From Phycisphaeraceae bacterium (GTDB lineage: Bacteria; Planctomycetota; Phycisphaerae; Phycisphaerales; Phycisphaeraceae): DNA of 39,915 bases. The notes beneath the pieces were generated by a model. It was not told where the DNA came from. It ran no database searches and saw only the letters and a program-made list of their open reading frames with translations. How positions within the stretch are numbered: the stretch's first letter is position 1; every line of letters begins with the position of its first letter. Shown here one piece after another: positions 1 through 7,992 of this stretch. Made by a program: the position numbers and the translations under genes. The stretch is from contig NYZC01000185.1 in the NCBI GenBank assembly GCA_002686995.1, positions 1 to 39,915 on the forward strand, in the 5' to 3' direction.

Positions 1-34
1 GACGTTCGACCTTCGACCTTTGACCTTCGACTTC
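1..34. repeat. Short degenerate tandem repeat (TTCGACC-type)
   Basis: The first bases repeat units close to TTCGACC or TTTGACC four to five times. A hairpin-like ACTTCT...AAGAAGT pair follows at about 30-54. The same style of repeat recurs at 32452-32492, and a related one at 21951-22008, so this looks like a dispersed intergenic simple repeat. It lies just past the stop of the ATPase gene and has no coding potential that I trust. Confidence 0.5.
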
Positions 35-68
35 TCGTCACCGCGACAAGAAGTGATGCCGGAAGAAT

Positions 69-1745
69 CTAGACCCCGTTCACGTACTGATGCCGGCGCG
101 TCACGCGGCGCTGGACCGGCTCGACGGCCACGATGTCCATGTCCTGCGGCAGGTCCGCGAGGTACTGCCGCACGTTGTGCAGGGCGAGCTGGCCGCGCAG
201 CTTGTCCAGCGTGTCCGCCAGGGCGTGCTCGACGTCGTCGAGGCAGACGCCTTCGACGCCGCCCGCCACCTCGCGGAAGGCGGCGCGGCGCCGCGCCTCG
301 CGGCAGACCTGCTCGAGGATGCGCCCGCTGACCACCTCGCGGCAGTTCACGACCCGCTGGGTGTTGTCGCGGAACCGGATCGTGCACAGGTCGTTGTCCG
401 CGTTCGGGGCGTACAGCCGCGAGACGACCAGCTCGATCAGGTCGAGGCGCGTGCGCGCCGCCTGGTCGCCGTTGGGGTGGTACGGGAACTGCTCCTGCAG
501 GTGAATGGGCAGGATCTGGCGCGCCGAGCGCATGTCGGGCCGCCGGATCTCGAACTGCATCTCGAGTCGCTCGACGAGCGCCGGATCGATGAGATCGACG
601 CGATTCGTCGCGGCGATGACGACGATGCCCGAGTCGCCGTCGGTGGCGAACCCCTGCATCTCCGCGAGCAGGGCGGCGAGGAACTTGTCGCCGTGCTGGC
701 TCATCGACCCGCCGCGGACCCGCGCGATCGACTCGACCTCGTCCAGGAACAGCAGCCCGAACTCGCCGGCGTCGCGCAGGGCCTTGAAGCACTCGCGGAT
801 GCGGCGCTGGGTGACGCCGACGTACGGATCCTCGAACTGGCCGGGCTTCACGACGCAGATGTTGCACCGGCGGCCGAGGTTGCGCTGCACCTGTGCGGCC
901 GAGACCCGCGCCATCAGGGTCTTGCCGCACCCGGGGGGGCCGATCATCAGGATGCCGAGCTGCTTGCCGTCGAGCAGCCCGTACTTGCGCGCGACCTTCT
1001 TCTGCGACATCATCAGCATCAGCGCCGAGACGAGCTGATCGAGCGTCTGCCGCGCCCGGCCGCCGACGCGATCGGCATCGATGTCCTCCACCTGCTCCAC
1101 GCGGAACTCCTGGCCCTCGGCCCGCCGGATGCGCTCGAAGCCGAGGCGCGCGGTGCGATCCCAGCGCACCAGGTCGCCGGGCTGCCAGTCCTCCCGCGGG
1201 ACGCCGTCCGCCAGGCCGATGACCTCCTCCTGCTCGCCGCGCCGCACGAGCATGCGCCCGTCCTCGGTGAAGTGATCGAACGCCGCGACCTCGCCGAAGC
1301 AGACGACCATCGGGGACTTGCGGATCACGGCGGAGAGGTCCTGGTTGAGCAGAACGGCGTCGCCGACCGCGAGGCTCTCCGGATCGAGATCGTCGGCGAT
1401 CGGAATGACGCGCCACGCGTTGCCGTGGGCGATCATCGCCGTGGGCACGGCGCCGGTCTCGGCGGACGCGACATAGATCGCGGGGTGCAGCGGCGGCTCG
1501 GTGAGCTTCGCCAGCACGTTCTCCATCTCCTTGAAGCTGCGCTCGGCGCGGCGCAGGCCCTCCGACTGCGCCGACATGCGACCCAGCAGGTACCGGTCGA
1601 CGTGCGTCGCCAGCTCCGGCTGGTTCTGCCGGAACTCGCTGAGCATCGCGTATCGGGCTTCGAGCGGAAGGCTCTCGTCGCACAGCATCTTCGTGACGTC
1701 GTCGGGAATGGTCTGGCGCGAGCTGGAGCTAGTGCGTCGGGGCAT
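69..1745 (-). CDS. AAA+ ATPase of the Mpa/ARC proteasomal-ATPase type, last gene of the ubiquitin-like operon
   Basis: A 558-residue hexameric-type unfoldase candidate. An N-terminal helical, likely coiled-coil segment (about 20-85) is followed by one or two OB-like beta regions (about 95-215) and an AAA domain. The AAA domain has Walker A GPPGCGKT (269-276), Walker B LLFLDE (331-336), sensor-1 Asn381 and a candidate Arg finger at 393. The segment at about 300-320 (FEDPYVGVTQRRIR) matches the pore-loop neighbourhood of proteasomal ATPases. After the AAA core, TIRFRD (455-460) and the following helix resemble the Mpa/ARC-specific insertion, so I place it in that family rather than Vps4/Cdc48. 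It ends YVNGV, so neither the Mpa GQYL tail nor an HbYX tail is present. The start at 1745 is chosen for a GGAGGT seven bases upstream; a longer reading to 1811 lacks this. It overlaps the JAMM gene by 17 bases. By inference it unfolds tagged substrates; its protease partner is unknown. Confidence 0.88.
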   Translation of the reverse strand: MPRRTSSSSRQTIPDDVTKMLCDESLPLEARYAMLSEFRQNQPELATHVDRYLLGRMSAQSEGLRRAERSFKEMENVLAKLTEPPLHPAIYVASAETGAVPTAMIAHGNAWRVIPIADDLDPESLAVGDAVLLNQDLSAVIRKSPMVVCFGEVAAFDHFTEDGRMLVRRGEQEEVIGLADGVPREDWQPGDLVRWDRTARLGFERIRRAEGQEFRVEQVEDIDADRVGGRARQTLDQLVSALMLMMSQKKVARKYGLLDGKQLGILMIGPPGCGKTLMARVSAAQVQRNLGRRCNICVVKPGQFEDPYVGVTQRRIRECFKALRDAGEFGLLFLDEVESIARVRGGSMSQHGDKFLAALLAEMQGFATDGDSGIVVIAATNRVDLIDPALVERLEMQFEIRRPDMRSARQILPIHLQEQFPYHPNGDQAARTRLDLIELVVSRLYAPNADNDLCTIRFRDNTQRVVNCREVVSGRILEQVCREARRRAAFREVAGGVEGVCLDDVEHALADTLDKLRGQLALHNVRQYLADLPQDMDIVAVEPVQRRVTRRHQYVNGV

Positions 1746-2847
1746 TTTCGTGACCTCCAATGGTGGCGAGGGGGGCGTCGGCGGGACCGATCGCTTCGGG
1801 TGAGCCGTCAACGTGGAAAGCGCGCGCGCGGATCATGCCGCGGCGCCAGCCGAACAGGGTCGGGATGATGCCGTCCGTCCGGTCGGTCAGCAGCAGGCCG
1901 ACCTGGTAGGCGCGGGGAAAGACGGTCCTGTGCAGGCTGCAGTCGTCGGTGGAGAAGAAGATGCGCCGCAGGGGACACACCTCCTGCCGCTCGCTTGGGC
2001 ACTTGCGGCACCAGTCGGGGTGCGAGTGCCACCAACCGACGAAGATTTCGTCAGACTGCCGCAGCTGAAGTGCAGCCCGGGCGTCGGACCAGGTCTCGTG
2101 CGTGAACGTCAGCTTCATCGAGGCGCTGCGGGTGTGGCGCGCCGGGACCTGGGCGGTGATTTCCAGGCACAGCCGTCCGCCGGCGGCGTCGCGGGCGAGA
2201 CGGCCGAGCAGGACGCCGCCCGTTTCGACCTCGCCGGCCTCGCGCACCCGCGCCCGGGTCTCCTCGAGCACGTCGGGCCGAATCAGCACCGGGACGTCGT
2301 CGGGATCACCGGCACCGATGACGGTCGAGCGATCCAGGCGCGACGCGAGGTCGGCATCGGCGATGTCGAGGACGAGGGGCTCCTCCACCACGTCCCGGTC
2401 GTGGCCGTCGGTCCCGGGCGGCGCCGATTCGCGGACGAACGCCAGCGTCCGGTACTCGAACGTCTGGCCGGACTCGAGTCGGCCCTCGTCAACCAGCGCC
2501 GAGGAGACCTTCTCGGCGGCGCTGCGGAAGTAGTCGACGGGAATCGACTCGGACCACGGACGGCCGTCGTCGGTGGCGATCGATATCCGGATCGATTGGA
2601 CCCAGGGCGCGCCGCGGTCCTCGAGCCATTCGGGCTCGAGCAGGTAGTCGGGCGTCGCGAGCACCGGCGCCACGCGGCCGGCGGCGATCGCGGCGAACTG
2701 CAGGTGCTCGACGGCCGGCTTCCAGTCGATCCGGATCGGCCACTGGCCGAGCGGTCGACCCTGGTCGTCCTGGATCTCGACGGCGAGCTGGTATTCGGTC
2801 CGACTTCGGCGGTTCTTCGCTTCGCTTCGATGTTCGGTGGTCGGCAT
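1729..2847 (-). CDS. JAMM/JAB metallo-isopeptidase with Cys-containing insert
   Basis: A 372-residue protein with an unrecognised N-terminal region (about 1-190) and a C-terminal JAB/MPN domain. The JAMM metal site is complete: Glu208 before GGVLLG (210-215), His274-Ser-His276-Pro, and Ser299-x-x-Asp302. Between the HxH and SxxD parts sits an insert with three Cys (280, 283, 291) and a fourth at 303, which may bind an extra zinc. JAMM enzymes cleave isopeptide bonds to ubiquitin-like proteins. Here it lies between the ubiquitin-like gene and the ATPase, so it probably removes the tag from substrates, as Rpn11 does at the proteasome (inference). The start at 2847 has GGAGAC upstream; an upstream in-frame ATG at 3018 lies inside a palindromic repeat and is less likely. 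Confidence 0.9.
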   Translation of the reverse strand: MPTTEHRSEAKNRRSRTEYQLAVEIQDDQGRPLGQWPIRIDWKPAVEHLQFAAIAAGRVAPVLATPDYLLEPEWLEDRGAPWVQSIRISIATDDGRPWSESIPVDYFRSAAEKVSSALVDEGRLESGQTFEYRTLAFVRESAPPGTDGHDRDVVEEPLVLDIADADLASRLDRSTVIGAGDPDDVPVLIRPDVLEETRARVREAGEVETGGVLLGRLARDAAGGRLCLEITAQVPARHTRSASMKLTFTHETWSDARAALQLRQSDEIFVGWWHSHPDWCRKCPSERQEVCPLRRIFFSTDDCSLHRTVFPRAYQVGLLLTDRTDGIIPTLFGWRRGMIRARAFHVDGSPEAIGPADAPLATIGGHENAPTH

Positions 2848-3099
2848 GGCGGTGTCTCCGTGGCAGCGCGTCGTCGGCGCGCACCGCCCCCGGCGGGGGG
2901 TGAACCCGGTCCTTTCGGGCCGGACGATCACCCCCTTCGGTCGAACCCCTAACGCGGCCCTGCCGCACCGGGGAAGAACCACGGATGAACACGGATGTTT
3001 CGGATCCGGACGCCGCAAGGAGTCCGGTCCGTAAAAAAACCGTGCCCATCCGAGTTCATCCGTGGTTCTCCCGCGGCGGCTTTCGGCGCGGTCGGACCC
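2848..3099 (-). other. Structured 252-base spacer between the ubiquitin-like gene and the JAMM gene
   Basis: The rest of the operon has gaps of 24 bases or less, so this spacer stands out. Besides the palindromic element at 2976-3068, the JAMM leader contains two GC-rich hairpins. At 2882-2902 CACC/GGTG and C4/G4 arms pair. At 2906-2923 the minus-strand RNA reads CCGGCCC-GAAA-GGACCGG, a seven-pair stem with a GNRA tetraloop. No U-tract follows. It may attenuate, process or stabilise the transcript between the tag genes and the isopeptidase/ATPase pair. That role is inference. Confidence 0.5.
2976..3068. repeat. Palindromic intergenic element, copy 1
   Basis: Arms 2976-2997 (begins GAACCACGGATGAACACG) and 3047-3068 are inverted copies, 22 bases with one mismatch. 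The loop holds a second stem, CCGGAC...GTCCGG. The same element, with the same GGACGCC-rich inner hairpin, recurs at 11172-11294. It behaves like a REP/MITE-type dispersed element. Confidence 0.8.
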
Positions 3100-3375
3100 T
3101 CAACCGGCGTCGATGCTCGGCGAGATCATCAGCTCGTCATCCTCGCGCAGCGCGTCGACGACGCGCTCGGACGCGTGAAGGTGACGGCCTTCCCGCTCGA
3201 GACGGGCGGCGTAGCTCAGGCGCTCGCCGCGCGACTCCGACGGCAGTTCGAGGTCCGGCAGCAGGCGATCGACCAGCTGGCCGATCGTGCCTTCGCCGTG
3301 CTCACGGACCCGGATGCGCTTCTGGCCCGTGGCATCCGAAACGTGCAACGACATCCTGTCAGTGGTGCTCACCAT
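3100..3375 (-). CDS. Ubiquitin-like (beta-grasp) protein with C-terminal Gly
   Basis: A 91-residue protein whose layout fits a ubiquitin-like beta-grasp fold. It has an N-terminal beta hairpin (about 8-26, with alternating hydrophobics), a helix around TIGQLVDRLL (30-39), then strands ending in a VVDALREDDELMISP segment (72-86) that resembles the last strand of ubiquitin-like proteins. The chain ends ...PSIDAG, so the terminal residue is a single Gly with nothing after it. That suits direct adenylation by the neighbouring E1 without proteolytic maturation, and the JAMM protein may act only as a deconjugase (inference). It is not Pup: the length, fold pattern and C-terminal Gly differ. AAAGGAGG lies just upstream of the ATG. 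Assignment rests on pattern plus its place among E1, E2 and JAMM genes. Confidence 0.82.
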   Translation of the reverse strand: MVSTTDRMSLHVSDATGQKRIRVREHGEGTIGQLVDRLLPDLELPSESRGERLSYAARLEREGRHLHASERVVDALREDDELMISPSIDAG

Positions 3376-3389
3376 GGTGGGGCCTCCTT

Positions 3390-4299
3390 TCAGGCGGAAC
3401 GGGCGACGGCTCGCCACGGAGAACGACTCCGCAGAAAGGCCTTCGCGATGACGGAATCCCGGCAGAGCGCCCGCGCTTCCCGGCCGCAGCAGTCGACGGC
3501 GACCGACAGGCCGGAAAGGCAAGCGGCAAGATCGGTCTCGCGGCATGGGGCGGGCGGCCGCGACTGGAACCGGATCGACCACCCGCCGTCCTCCTCCGTG
3601 GCGGCGGCGCGGGCGAACCGGACGGCGGCGGTGACCTGGAGCAGGAGCACGCCGATTGCGCGCCGCCGCGGGGCGGGCAGGCGCTGCTCGCCCCGGGCGA
3701 TCTCGACGTCGACGAGCAGGCGCCGCCGGTCGTCGGGGCCGTCGTGCAGGATCCGCGCGCTGGCGGCCTGGCGCGACGGTGAGGGGTCGGGCCGCGTCGT
3801 CCTGTGCGGGCCAGCCCGACTGGCGGCACAGGGTCGCGAGGCCGCTTTGCTCCTCTTCCGCCCCGGATTCGTCGACGGCAGGTGAGTCTTTTCGCGTCGA
3901 CCCGCGCTTCGAAGGCGCCAGCGCCTGGCGCAGGTCCGTGAAGAGGGCGCCGACCCGATCGATCAGCGCGTCGGCCCCGTCGTCCGCGACGGTCAGCTCG
4001 CCGATCAGCATCGGGCTCGGGGCGCCCTCGGCTGCACTGATCGCGTGTTTCACCCCCCAGTCGGCGTCGGCGTTGCGGCGCAGGAATCGCCAGGCCGGAC
4101 AGCGGACGGGCGCCGCCGATCCGGCGACGGGGATCTCGACGGTCAGGCCGAGATCGTCGAGGCGGGCCGAGCCGCGGTGCATCGCGCCGTTTGCGATCGT
4201 GATCGCCCAGTGGTCTTCCGAGACCGCGCGCACGCTCGTGGCGTGCGTCTTGAGGGCCGTGACGAGGTCACCGCGCGGGGATGGCGACGGAAGCTGCAT
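3390..4299 (-). CDS. Unrecognised protein of the ubiquitin-like operon; reading requires one frameshift
   Basis: Translation starts at 4299 (MQLPSPSPRG), with GGAGG eight bases upstream and two bases after the E2 stop. The first frame reads well to about 3790 but never closes before the ubiquitin-like gene. From about 3780 down to a TGA at 3390 a second frame has clear coding character (ILHDG..., then VLLLQVTAAVRFARAAAT). The join needs one base skipped, and a CCCC run (GGGG at 3783-3786 on plus) is the natural place. The corrected product is about 302 residues. I recognise no family. Both halves share a loose pattern of beta strands, a hydrophobic strand ending in an acidic turn, then a helix, so an internal duplication or an adaptor fold is possible but weakly supported. 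It may be an assembly error, a real lesion, or +1 programmed frameshifting at CCC-C. Confidence 0.6.
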
Positions 4300-4301
4300 G
4301 A

Positions 4302-4787
4302 TCAGGCCCTCCATCTCAGGGGTCGCGGGTCGATCGGAAAGCGGTCGCGCGGCTGGTTGCGCGCCCACTGCGCCGCCGCCGCGTTGAGCGGGTCGTGAGG
4401 CGAATACTTCTGCCAGGTGATGATCTCGAACAGCTGGTAGAGGATCGACGTCAGCGTGATGGCCGGGCCCACGTGCCCGATGCAGACGTACGGGACGCGA
4501 TCCGAGATGTTGGGGTGCCAGGGGTTGCGCGGCCCGCCCCAGCACAGGAGCTTCACCGGATCGACGAAGCGGAGATGGTCCTCCGTGAACCAGATGTGGA
4601 CCGCGAACTCGTCGGCCTCCCGGACCTCGCCGCCGTCGTCGCGCACCAGCCCCCTGCAATGAAACAGGGCCATGTAGCGCGACGGCGGCCCGACGGGTAC
4701 GAGGTCGACCAGCTCGCTGTCCTCGACGAGCGGGATGGTCTGCTCGAACGTCTCACGGAGAAAGCTTTCCAGGATGACGTCAGGCAT
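4302..4787 (-). CDS. E2-like (UBC-fold) conjugating protein
   Basis: A 161-residue protein with the E2 hallmarks in order: HPN at 91-93, candidate catalytic Cys102 (PYVCIG) 11 residues after the His, a helix ILYQLFEII (115-123), then DPLN at 132-135 followed by an Ala-rich helix. In eukaryotic E2s the HPN Asn supports isopeptide formation and the Cys carries the thioester; the spacing here is nearly the same. It would take the ubiquitin-like protein from the adjacent E1 and pass it to a substrate, perhaps with the RING-type protein. The start overlaps the last eight bases of the E1 gene, and the GAGGAG binding site sits inside the E1 C-terminal codons, so the two are translationally coupled. 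Confidence 0.92.
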   Translation of the reverse strand: MPDVILESFLRETFEQTIPLVEDSELVDLVPVGPPSRYMALFHCRGLVRDDGGEVREADEFAVHIWFTEDHLRFVDPVKLLCWGGPRNPWHPNISDRVPYVCIGHVGPAITLTSILYQLFEIITWQKYSPHDPLNAAAAQWARNQPRDRFPIDPRPLRWRA

Positions 4788-5973
4788 GGGGGATCTCCTC
4801 GGGAGCCGGGTCAGAGTGGTTTCTGGACGTCTCGTTGCCGGCGCAGTCGGGCCCGATCAGCAGGTGGGCGTCCGGGTGACCTTCGCGCGCGACGGACACG
4901 ATGTCGCCGTCGCGCAGACCCACGCGGGCGAGGGGCCAGGCAAGGTGGCGGTCGGATAGCGAGGGCGCATCCAGCCGTTCGAGCTGCTGCGACGCGACGG
5001 GCACCATGCCGGGCTGACCGCAGCGGCGGCAGCGACTCTGCGCGGCGGTCAGGCGCGATTCGAGGCGCAGCACGCTCCGCGTCGCGCCGCAGTCGGCGCA
5101 GACGAGCGCGCGGGTGAACGCTCGGCCGGCAATGCGCACGGTCGTGCCGTTCGGGGCGTCGAGGACCTGTCGGAGCGTGGTGGTCCGCGCTGATCCGCCG
5201 AGGGGGAGCACGTCCCAGTGCTCGTGGCCACTCAGGCAGTCCTCGCGACGGTCGAACGCGGTGACGACGTGCCGGTGCGTGCGCGTGCAGAACGTGACCT
5301 GGCGACGCGCGGCGGCGTCGTCCCAGTCGCCTCGGACGACCTTGTCGGCCTCGACGACCATGAGCGAGGCCGCCAGGGCGCCCAGCGAGGCCGGGGCGTT
5401 CGTCGGCGCGGCATCCGGCGTCGCGCGATCGCAGGGGTGGCGCGCCGACAGTGCCGCGTAATCCACGGGGGACATGGCGCACTCCAGGCACGGCTCGTCC
5501 GGGCCCTGCCGGTAGACGTTGACGCGCACGAGGTGAAGGTCGGGATCCACGCCGGCATCGATCCACGGGATGCCGAGCCGCTGGCACGTGCGGTTGAGAT
5601 AGAGACGGGGGCCGCGGCTGTCGAGGCACGAGAGCAGTGCCGTGACGCCGCGCACGGCGCCGAGCGGCACGTCCTCGACGCGCGCCGCGATCGGGACGAC
5701 GTCGAGCGCGGGGTTGATCCGGTGGGCGAGCGCCGCCATCGCCCGCACCTTCGGCCGGCCCACGTCCGTGCGCAGGATGCACTGACCGGACAGGTTGCGC
5801 GCCTCGTACGCGTCGGGATCGATGAGTATGAGCGTCGAAACGGCCTGCGACCGCGCCATCATGGCGACGACGGCGGAGCCGATGTTGCCGCAACCGACGA
5901 TGCACACGCTGAACGGGGATGCATCATCCGCGCGCTGCGGGTTTTCCCGGATTTCCGTGCTGAGTGCGGTCAT
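4780..5973 (-). CDS. E1-like (ThiF/MoeB-fold) ubiquitin-activating enzyme with extra C-terminal zinc-ribbon region
   Basis: A 397-residue adenylating enzyme. The nucleotide-binding GxGxxG (27-32, GCGNIG) is followed by Asp52 (LIDPD) and a NLSGQ motif (60-64). Known E1/MoeB/ThiF proteins have NLxRQ here, so the usual Arg is replaced by Gly63. A structural zinc site is likely made by Cys162-x2-Cys165 and Cys246 plus His249. Cys181 (HPCDRATP), in the crossover region, is my best candidate for the thioester Cys. Beyond the E1 core (about 265-397) lies a CxxC pair (292/295) and another (315/318), a zinc ribbon, then GLRDGDIVSV, which looks like a beta-grasp or E2-docking element. AAAGGAGG precedes the ATG. 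The RING-type gene ends 24 bases upstream; the E2 gene overlaps downstream. Confidence 0.92.
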   Translation of the reverse strand: MTALSTEIRENPQRADDASPFSVCIVGCGNIGSAVVAMMARSQAVSTLILIDPDAYEARNLSGQCILRTDVGRPKVRAMAALAHRINPALDVVPIAARVEDVPLGAVRGVTALLSCLDSRGPRLYLNRTCQRLGIPWIDAGVDPDLHLVRVNVYRQGPDEPCLECAMSPVDYAALSARHPCDRATPDAAPTNAPASLGALAASLMVVEADKVVRGDWDDAAARRQVTFCTRTHRHVVTAFDRREDCLSGHEHWDVLPLGGSARTTTLRQVLDAPNGTTVRIAGRAFTRALVCADCGATRSVLRLESRLTAAQSRCRRCGQPGMVPVASQQLERLDAPSLSDRHLAWPLARVGLRDGDIVSVAREGHPDAHLLIGPDCAGNETSRNHSDPAPEEIPHA

Positions 5974-5997
5974 GGTGGCCTCCTTTCGCAGGGCGTG

Positions 5998-6528
5998 TCA
6001 CAGGTCCTCGGGCGTCCAGCGGTAGCCGCCGTCCAGCGCGGTCGGATGATCGACGCATGCCGCGCAAAGGTCGCTGTAGGTCCAGCAGGGGCGCTTCGCG
6101 GTCTGGTGATGCGCGACGTGGCACGTCGGACACCGCACCGAATCCGTCTCGTGCTCGATTTCGAGCATGCATCTGGGGCATTTGGCGCCTTTCGGGCCCG
6201 CAAACGGTGTGATGACCGGCAGGGTTTCGGTGCTGAACAGGGCGCGACCGGCGTCCAGGCGCAGCTCGTCGCGGTGCTCGAGCATGCGCAGGCCGAACAC
6301 GGGCGCCCCGTTGACGCGCACGCGCTTCGGGTCCGCGCAGACGAGCGCCCATTCCTGGCGTTCGTCGCTGTCGCTGCGCACCAGCGTCACCAGCGCTGCG
6401 TCGCCCTGCGCGTCGCAGACATGAACCGCGTGCGCAGCGTCTTCGGAGGCGCGCAACCCGAGGCGCGCGCCGTCGATTGCGCGATGGCGCCAGCTTTCGT
6501 CGTCGTTCTGAGTCCAGATGTTGGCCAT
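5998..6528 (-). CDS. FHA-like domain plus RING-type treble-clef zinc protein, candidate E3
   Basis: A 176-residue protein and the first gene of the operon. Residues about 20-105 look FHA-like: RVRVNGAPV (69-77) and MLEHRDELRL (82-91) fit the conserved NG and hydrophobic-x-HGDxL patterns, although the fold call is tentative. The C-terminal part has a RING-like ligand ladder: Cys117/120, Cys133/136, His140/141, Cys148, Cys155/158. Prokaryotic RING families found next to ubiquitin, E1, E2 and JAB genes are known from comparative genomics (the Prok-RING families of Burroughs, Iyer and Aravind). So a ligase or scaffold role is a reasoned inference, not shown. No membrane segment is seen. The start at 6528 is favoured (AAGGA upstream); extension to 6639 would run through the intergenic promoter. 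Confidence 0.78.
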   Translation of the reverse strand: MANIWTQNDDESWRHRAIDGARLGLRASEDAAHAVHVCDAQGDAALVTLVRSDSDERQEWALVCADPKRVRVNGAPVFGLRMLEHRDELRLDAGRALFSTETLPVITPFAGPKGAKCPRCMLEIEHETDSVRCPTCHVAHHQTAKRPCWTYSDLCAACVDHPTALDGGYRWTPEDL

Positions 6529-6873: not shown

Positions 6874-7992
6874 ATGCGTCTGATGTTTCGTCTCGCGCCC
6901 GCGGTTGCCAGCGTGAACGGCGGCACCATCAGGGGAGCGCGCAAGCTCATCGTGCGGGAAACCGGGCTTGCGCCGGATCGCGTCGGCAAGATGCTGGCGG
7001 GCAGGTACGTCAACTTCAGCCGGCGTACACTCGAAAAGATCTGCACCTGGCCCGAGAAACGCGGCTACAAGGGCGATCTGCCTGACGATCTGTTCGAGCC
7101 CTGCACCTCGTCGGCGTGGGAATACGTTGCCGAATCGAGGGCGGTGATCCTGTTCGTCGGCGGCTACACCTGGCCCCACAACCGGGTCGGTCCGTTCATC
7201 CACGAGCAGGACAACTTCGCGGCCAACCACATCGGCGGGCCGCTCAACGATCCTTCGATCGTGTACGTGCCTTTTGTCACGATGGCCGAGAAAGGCACGC
7301 CCAGCAAGGCGACGTGGACGCCGTACGCGAAGATCGCGCAGGAGACGCTGGATTCGAGCCGTTGTTGCGCCGGCAGGAAGACGCTGTTCTTCGTCGGCTC
7401 GCAGAAGGTCAATTACGCGCTCGAACTGGTCATCGGAGAGCTGTTCACCTCCTGCAAGCCGTTCAGCGCGCACCGTGACCCGGAAACCGTGCCGTTCTAC
7501 CTGTACTTCGGGGACGGGCGGTGCGACCTGCCGAGCATGTTCGGCGGTTGCGTGGCGCCGAAGGGCGCGGCGCGGGGGCGCAGGGTGCCGACGGTCGGCC
7601 TCTACCATTACGACCTCGACAAGCGGAGCTGGGACGTCGTCGAAACGACGTCCGGATCGCGCGAGGGCGGCATGATCGTGGTGTCGGTGGACCAGAAGAC
7701 CGGGTCGACGGAGATCGCCCTCCTCGGCATGACGGCCAACGGCACCGAAGCGATGGCGGCGGCGTTCGTCGACGATCCCGACCGGTTCTGGCCGGCGCAC
7801 CTGATCGCGAACGAGTCCACGGGCACGCGCAGGCCGCCGACGCACCAGCTGGATCGGGGCGTCGGGGATGGGCGCGTCCTGCAGATCAGCGTCTGCGACA
7901 TCAAGTACCGGCGGTCCGACCACCACCGCGTAGTGGTCGACGGATGCAACATCGTTCGGAAGTACGTGAACTGGGACAAGGTGGCCGCCTGA
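6874..7992 (+). CDS. HTH protein with unrecognised C-terminal domain, divergent from the ubiquitin-like operon
   Basis: A 372-residue protein. Residues about 16-75 look like a Cro/CI-type helix-turn-helix, with a recognition-helix-like stretch at GRYVNFSRRTLEKIC (43-57). From about 88 a separate alpha/beta domain begins with AVILFVGGYTW. A second hydrophobic strand and Ser-containing turn, LFFVGSQKVNYALELVIGEL (171-190), looks like a Rossmann-type nucleotide-binding loop, but I recognise no family. A beta-rich tail follows. GGGAGG is six bases upstream of the chosen ATG; the in-frame upstream region reads through non-coding control DNA. Its divergent position suggests that it regulates, or senses a ligand for, the conjugation operon (inference). 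A six-pair hairpin at 7992-8009 follows the stop but lacks a T-run. Confidence 0.72.
   Translation: MRLMFRLAPAVASVNGGTIRGARKLIVRETGLAPDRVGKMLAGRYVNFSRRTLEKICTWPEKRGYKGDLPDDLFEPCTSSAWEYVAESRAVILFVGGYTWPHNRVGPFIHEQDNFAANHIGGPLNDPSIVYVPFVTMAEKGTPSKATWTPYAKIAQETLDSSRCCAGRKTLFFVGSQKVNYALELVIGELFTSCKPFSAHRDPETVPFYLYFGDGRCDLPSMFGGCVAPKGAARGRRVPTVGLYHYDLDKRSWDVVETTSGSREGGMIVVSVDQKTGSTEIALLGMTANGTEAMAAAFVDDPDRFWPAHLIANESTGTRRPPTHQLDRGVGDGRVLQISVCDIKYRRSDHHRVVVDGCNIVRKYVNWDKVAA

Follow-up and report, generated by a model that had tools for sequence, protein, structure and literature searches.

The 39,915-nucleotide contig NYZC01000185.1 of a Phycisphaeraceae bacterium, referred to over its whole length as the window, carries on its minus strand, at positions 69-6528, an operon for a ubiquitin-type conjugation cascade together with an AAA+ ATPase related to ARC/Mpa, and in six related genomes this operon continues into genes of a Pup-type pathway. 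The complete order is RING, E1, E2, YbjN-like, ubiquitin-like protein (Ubl), JAMM, ATPase, Dop-like, Pup-like and PafA-like, and both order and strand are kept, less E1, E2 and Ubl in one case, in six genomes that are assigned to six different families. On balance we consider it probable that the operon makes two separate tags, the Ubl and the Pup-like protein, which are likely read by one shared AAA+ unfoldase; the ten genes themselves are identified from sequence, fold prediction and gene order. An earlier note on the window had described seven minus-strand genes, one of them with no assigned family, and had seen in them a mixture of eukaryotic and Pup-proteasome logic. The seven genes and the conservation of their order in related genomes are confirmed, the unassigned gene is YbjN-like and frameshifted, and the mixture turns out to be more literal than claimed, since in the relatives the ATPase gene has Dop-like, Pup-like and PafA-like neighbours.

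Distribution and organization of the operon

As contig C185, the window belongs to a genome of 7.8 Mb (G000; 446 contigs, 87.6% complete) and ends 68 bases beyond the ATPase gene (window 1..68), so that the operon is cut there. In the six relatives, the ATPase gene is followed by a Dop-like gene, by a gene encoding the Pup-like protein and by a PafA-like gene, and five of the six (L129, L130, L131, L167 and L168) contain all ten genes. Genes matching PF03136 adjoin the ATPase in G013, G016 and G050 and likewise in G819, G885 and G927. In the genome of the window, a PafA-like gene with its 5' end missing stands at the start of contig C242 (L144:3-1262, with PF03136 at bases 24-1148); its frame is open from base 3, it is the only PF03136 gene found in G000, and C185 and C242 are probably neighbours. 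Short repeats of the type AAGGTCGAA are present near the end of the window contig (window 1-60); they recur on the downstream side of the PafA-like gene of C242 (L144 around 1300-1500), as single copies or in GTCGAA runs, and may explain the assembly break. The window's own Ubl cluster (P0121) is present on 7 contigs, the longest of which (46,745 bases) exceeds the window, and another assembly may close the gap. The longest contigs also agree in length for ATPase P0013 and Ubl P0124 (206,959 for both) and for ATPase P0041 and YbjN-like P0153 (31,698 for both), and therefore the members of each pair probably lie on the same contigs.

The operon family is rare. When 392 genomes of the phylum were searched with the window ATPase, 350 contained a match at or below E 1e-20, and among the matches listed only four genomes (the window's own, G050, G013 and G016) had one longer than 500 residues. 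An ATPase profile run against 397 genomes of the class reached 1e-90 or better in four, namely the window's own, G819, G885 and G927. The two draws, which partly overlap, thus contain seven distinct operon genomes, all of them drafts, and searches of the classes of G016 and G013 gave no further members. In a phylum that we take to be on the Verrucomicrobia side, lower-scoring ATPases (E 4.6e-79 to 2.3e-68) were present in 9 of 288 genomes; in the two whose ATPase neighbourhoods are used here (G565 and G407), Dop/PafA-type genes adjoin the ATPase and ubiquitin-type matches are absent.

A contig scan with the ATPase alignment, based on patterns common to AAA proteins, returned at least 80 loci, and a viral scan returned 17 with partial AAA matches. 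In all these 97 loci, profiles applied at 1e-4 found ATPase and Dop/PafA-type genes and a single weak E1 match (L069, 5e-6), and no match to E2, Ubl, RING, JAMM, YbjN-like or operon-Pup; therefore, none of the 97 holds the operon, and those bearing Dop/PafA genes served as a comparison set. Among the ARC-type ATPases, two (L051 in G392, 7.9 Mb; L049 in G399) come from records titled Akkermansia muciniphila and Nanoarchaeota, respectively, which are possibly mislabelled or contaminated bins; 7.9 Mb is large for Akkermansia muciniphila.

The alignments used below comprise, for Ubl, 29 of 31 matches (the window's own cluster P0121 and the short P0151 being left out); for the ATPase, 49 of the 120 matches listed plus the window; and for the YbjN-like protein, 6 of 8 matches, P0152 and P0154 being dropped as they come from loci already included. 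The YbjN-like proteins of L129 (with a provisional start), L131 and L169 entered the alignment because of their position and not through the profile search, and VIA-align was applied to Ubl alone.

The Pup-like protein

Between the Dop-like and the PafA-like gene, all six relatives encode a Pup-like protein of 61-73 residues. It ends in GGE (L129 and L168), GGQ (L130, L131 and L167) or SGE (L169), and among the stop-to-stop frames of at least 40 residues in these loci it alone ends in [GSA]G[EQ]. Gln64 and Gly67 are invariant, and the G[E/Q] end is kept in 6/6. A profile of these proteins gives its top match in each of the six genomes (8e-23 to 5e-30), with no other match better than 0.026 in 10 genomes. 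In a profile-profile comparison with ten canonical Pups taken from ARC loci, the last 24 columns, reaching the final residue, align with 91% probability and 42% identity; the canonical-Pup profile compared with that of the Ubl gives 0.3% probability. The view that the operon holds glutamine synthetase (GS)-fold enzymes with no Pup at all was dropped once the gap between the two enzyme genes had been translated.

The Dop-like and PafA-like enzymes

Among solved structures in the PDB, the first enzyme of L130 is closer to Dop (5e-66) than to PafA (2e-40), and for the second, Dop (1e-39) again comes ahead of PafA (1e-32), with a narrower gap. In a tree of 37 rows, each operon enzyme forms a separate clade with 100/100 support, the first lying on the Dop side, and the stems leading to both clades are long (1.3 changes per column). 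The copy on C242 of the window's genome falls within the PafA-like clade of the operon (98/88). The PafA labels of L050 and L172 are unsure, because both rows fall elsewhere in the tree. Wherever operon rows reach these positions, Asp104, Glu109, Glu114, Asp157, His166, Arg219 and Arg235 (numbering of Dop_L035) are conserved throughout. The majority of the Dop-like rows share the conserved residue at 60, and the majority of the PafA-like rows at 57, of the 82 columns that are conserved across at least 22 of the 24 canonical rows.

The ATPase and the proteasome

The ATPase (69..1745, minus strand, 558 residues) matches AAA (2e-28) and OB (5.9e-10) profiles and ends in HQYVNGV. Its closest solved structure is Mpa/ARC (2.9e-46), and it scores 230 bits against pup_AAA (TIGR03689), below the curated cut-off of 504.75; as judged from its sequence, it is a relative of ARC/Mpa, not an equivalog. 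The HbYX motif is absent from the C-terminus of the ATPase in the window and in the six relatives.

An initial view, that this ATPase serves a 20S proteasome, was dropped after the search with PF00227. No 20S pair was found in the seven draft operon genomes; G013, G016 and G050 have no PF00227 match, and G000, G819, G885 and G927 have one match each, which we take to be HslV from the N-terminal motif. The degradation by a 20S proteasome that the earlier note had suggested is thus not borne out, either in the relatives or in the window's own genome, where 20S genes were looked for. The comparison genomes G395, G565 and G407 do contain neighbouring 20S-type pairs, the second member in G407 being under the cut-off.

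The ubiquitin-type genes

The seven genes of the window include two overlapping pairs, E1/E2 and JAMM/ATPase, and AGGAGG can be read upstream of E1 and of Ubl. The first gene in the direction of transcription (5998..6528, minus strand, like all the genes described in this section except where stated) encodes a RING-type zinc protein of 176 residues, a candidate E3, whose match to Prok-RING_1 (E=4.9e-6) is below the cut-off. The same holds for the four relatives scanned (E 3.6e-6 to 0.12), and an orthologue is the first gene of the operon in all six relatives. An FHA domain, considered for this protein from its motifs, had no Pfam match in the window or in the relatives scanned and is not claimed. 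The RING-type gene is followed by that of an E1-like activating enzyme of 397 residues (4780..5973; ThiF 1.9e-28), which has MoeB, MccB, UBA5 and ThiF as PDB matches and carries a zinc-ribbon-like set of Cys pairs at its C-terminus; its Cys181 aligns with a Cys of MoeB and is invariant in 6/6 aligned proteins.

The E2-like conjugating enzyme (4302..4787, 161 residues) has an HPN motif and Cys102, both invariant in 6/6 aligned proteins. Its match to UQ_con is under the cut-off (0.0042), and in sequence comparison it aligns with UBC12 around the Cys, with a weak profile match of 0.0064; weak as both profile matches are, HPN and Cys line up with a UBC-type domain. The description of the operon in the earlier note as a ubiquitin-type cascade with an ARC-like ATPase is borne out.

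The next gene (3390..4299) encodes a two-domain protein similar to YbjN and secretion chaperones and is broken by a single frameshift between about 3792 and 3725. The family profile matches the first part up to about 3792 (62.2 bits) and, in the next frame, the last part from about 3725 (63.9 bits); in the relatives, the gene is in a single frame. The frameshift of the window may be real or an assembly error. In L168, the protein has a match to YbjN (PF10722) of 9e-4, under the cut-off, and its AlphaFold2 model (pLDDT 84.8) consists of two similar alpha-beta halves, for which a fold search ranked members of the YbjN family and chaperones of type III secretion highest, with no match under E 0.001.

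The Ubl (3100..3375) is a single-domain protein of 91 residues with a predicted ubiquitin/beta-grasp fold, in agreement with the ubiquitin-like nature proposed for it earlier, and ends in DAG. The Ala-Gly pair is invariant in 35/35 aligned sequences, eight of which stop there, with the other 27 having 2-17 variable residues beyond it. Such tails would be expected of a precursor trimmed by the JAMM enzyme, by analogy with the Caldiarchaeum precursor and its Rpn11-like enzyme as they appear in the available part of PMC5654768. The JAMM/JAB peptidase itself (1729..2847, 372 residues; Prok-JAB 1.5e-6, JAB 1.2e-5) has an N-terminal domain and a Cys-rich insert within the JAMM motif, and an orthologue is present in all six relatives.

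Upstream of the operon and divergent from it lies a gene that also encodes 372 amino acids (window 6874-7992, plus strand), a possible regulator with weak matches only (HTH_26, E=0.036). Also neighbouring the operon in the window are genes for a MoxR ATPase and for GH42-like and PhyH-like proteins.

Comparison with known systems

Prokaryotic operons with RING, E1, E2, Ubl and JAB genes, including Prok-RING_1, were reportedly described by Burroughs in 2011 and are not known to include a Pup pathway; the present operon resembles them in joining a putative RING-type protein to E1, E2, Ubl and JAMM. The BIL system (BilABCD) likewise has Ubl, E1, E2 and JAMM in one bacterial operon, but BilA has two ubiquitin-like domains according to the available part of PMC11354881, whereas the Ubl described here has one domain in 91 residues. 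Bacterial Ubl-E1-E2-JAB operons of type 6d, as far as the available part of Iyer 2006 (PMC1779556) describes them, share with the present operon a Ubl with a C-terminal Gly, stand-alone E1 and E2 and a JAMM protein with an N-terminal domain. They differ in having an alpha-helical protein, in being without RING, ATPase, Dop, Pup and PafA, and in an E2 lacking the usual His, whereas the E2 of the window keeps HPN. Genes in or beside one operon of Caldiarchaeum encode a ubiquitin precursor, which a JAMM enzyme cleaves, together with E1, E2 and a small RING protein, but the available part of PMC5654768 does not mention AAA+ or Pup-type genes, the string 'AAA' being absent from the text, and the ubiquitin ends in di-Gly rather than in Ala-Gly.

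On the side of pupylation, the available part of Iyer 2008 (PMC2588565) describes Pup as a protein of 50-90 residues with a G[EQ] end, encoded adjacent to PafA and mostly linked to 20S. The operon agrees with this in that Dop-, Pup- and PafA-like genes adjoin an ARC-type ATPase and that its tag, too, is short, ends in G[E/Q] and is encoded beside PafA. It differs in the 20S proteasome, not found in the operon genomes, in the ATPase score, and in the ubiquitin-type cascade that precedes these genes and finds no mention in that part of the paper. Single-copy Dop/PafA relatives were reported in some Planctomycetes in a 2020 paper (PMC7947786, available part), and no operon pairing Pup with E1-E2-Ubl is listed in the available part of PMC1779556. 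In the literature searched, parts of papers included and with Burroughs 2011 and Iyer 2009 lying outside it, the pairing of a Pup pathway with an E1-E2-Ubl operon was not found, and an earlier mention is possible.

Proposed mechanism and alternative explanations

In the first of the two predicted routes, the JAMM peptidase would trim the Ubl to its DAG end where a tail exists, the E1 would adenylate it, with Cys181 as the candidate thioester residue, and the Ubl would be passed to Cys102 of the E2; the RING-type protein would then help its transfer to the target, from which the JAMM enzyme could remove it again. In the second, the Dop-like enzyme would deamidate a Gln-ending Pup-like tag and could also remove the tag, and the PafA-like enzyme would join the C-terminal Glu of the tag to a lysine. 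These steps are carried over from known families. ARC is the ATPase that reads Pup, and we infer that both tags go to the same ATPase because of the shared operon and of its kinship with ARC, and because looser operons pair the ubiquitin-type set and the ATPase without Pup genes. Both kinds of tagged protein would thus meet at the ATPase ring and be pulled apart there. Because no 20S chamber was found in the operon genomes, the ring would most likely unfold or extract its clients, acting as an unfoldase or segregase without such a chamber, and the YbjN-like protein may hold the unfolded clients.

Several observations weigh against a two-tag operon of this kind. The activities of all ten members are predictions, and the link between the Pup-like proteins and canonical Pup is the profile-profile comparison only, so that the tag would be at most a very divergent Pup. 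The Pfam Pup family (PF05639) matches one of the six tags, weakly (E=0.12), and none of the other five; run on whole genomes, it missed all six and returned only the canonical Pup of G395 and chance-level matches. This profile is insensitive, because it also missed G565 and G407; conversely, the operon Pup-like profile finds no canonical Pup at 1e-4 in the 97 comparison loci. The incomplete assembly of the window's genome yielded neither Dop nor Pup, the Pup-like profile giving nothing better than 0.177 with 150 of 274 candidate places scored, and the presence of the two genes there can therefore only be inferred. The grouping of the second enzyme clade beside PafA is weak (60/96). Asp replaces the first Glu of ExE in all six Dop-like enzymes, and Ser replaces the Asn of HxN in six of seven PafA-like ones, changes that may alter the activity of both enzymes. 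The absence of HbYX is not decisive as to the proteasome, since three of four comparison ATPases lack it, two of them from genomes with 20S-like pairs.

Gene content likewise weighs against it. The locus of G927 (L169:4325-13865) keeps RING, YbjN-like, JAMM, ATPase, Dop, Pup and PafA and lacks E1, E2 and Ubl, with no E2 elsewhere in that genome at 1e-5, and therefore the two halves are separable. G909 and G1010 (L206:2633-12184 and L207:2764-12039), looser relatives that belong to one genus, carry a sister operon with RING, E1, E2, JAMM and ATPase, and Dop, Pup and PafA have no match within 20 kb. They also contain a second P-loop protein where the Pup genes would stand, a weak Ubl match (0.006-0.008) and, in the YbjN-like position, a protein with no profile match; the E2 of L206 reads HSN versus HPN in the window. 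L204 and L205 are further ubiquitin-type operons from the same order; they have Ubl, E1, JAMM and E2 and no match to the ATPase. L205 has a weak RING match, absent from L204, which contains in addition proteins bearing membrane-like stretches. Since gene sets differ in L169, L206, L207, L204 and L205, the system looks modular.

The separate occurrence of the parts in G927, G909 and G1010 would also suit two independent operons lying side by side with no common function, an arrangement that is highly improbable given the same order and strand in six genomes of six families and the overlap by a few bases of the ATPase and Dop-like genes in L130 and L131. A different possibility is that the Ubl has become the substrate of the Dop-like and PafA-like enzymes, which would serve as a second ligase and an eraser for this same tag, the Pup-like gene being a relic or a regulator. 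The changed active-site positions and the long stems of both operon clades would fit such a switch, which is nonetheless decidedly unlikely, as the Pup-like C-terminus is kept in 6/6 and matches canonical Pup there, and the conserved end of the Ubl is Gly, not Glu or Gln.

Two further explanations concern the fate of the tagged proteins rather than the tags. The ATPase, nearest to Mpa/ARC among solved structures, might hand proteins carrying a Ubl or Pup tag over to a peptidase chamber, with for example HslV or ClpP replacing 20S, and HslV is present in four of the seven operon genomes. We regard such tag-directed degradation as unlikely in view of the missing 20S in all seven draft genomes, of the lack of any proteasome-fold match in three of them (the search did not extend to ClpP or other proteases) and of ATPases without HbYX. 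An anti-phage defence system like BIL or Bub, enlarged by extra parts, is in our opinion quite unlikely. A link to phage defence is reported for related bacterial E1-E2-JAB-Ubl operons, and a HigB-like toxin (1.4e-19) and a DUF6088/AbiEi-like gene lie downstream of the operon in L130 (14823-16204); however, such toxin-type genes were seen in this one locus only, in flanks that had no systematic survey, and the neighbours in the window have other affinities (GH42-like, PhyH-like and MoxR ATPase). The link with phage defence drawn in the earlier note found no support, PADLOC giving only partial matches to generic E1-E2, JAB, IetA and TRIP13-type models.

We thus return to the reading of two tags and a shared unfoldase, of which a stronger form is conceivable, though we hold it with reserve: that ubiquitin-type and Pup-type systems of independent origin have fused in one operon into a machine without a proteasome, in which a single AAA+ ring reads both tags and either one tag marks the client and the other commits it to unfolding, or one modifies the other. 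Convergent evolution has a textbook example in ubiquitination and pupylation, in which unrelated tags and ligases do a similar job, and here the gene sets for both tags are arranged in a single conserved order around a single ATPase, in draft genomes in which the 20S protease was not found. If the association is real, it becomes testable whether one motor reads both codes, whether chemically different tags can be used one after the other and whether a ring of the ARC type can serve as a segregase, and the ten genes are a compact set for reconstitution. A machine of this kind, if confirmed, would represent a third way of organizing the handling of tagged proteins.

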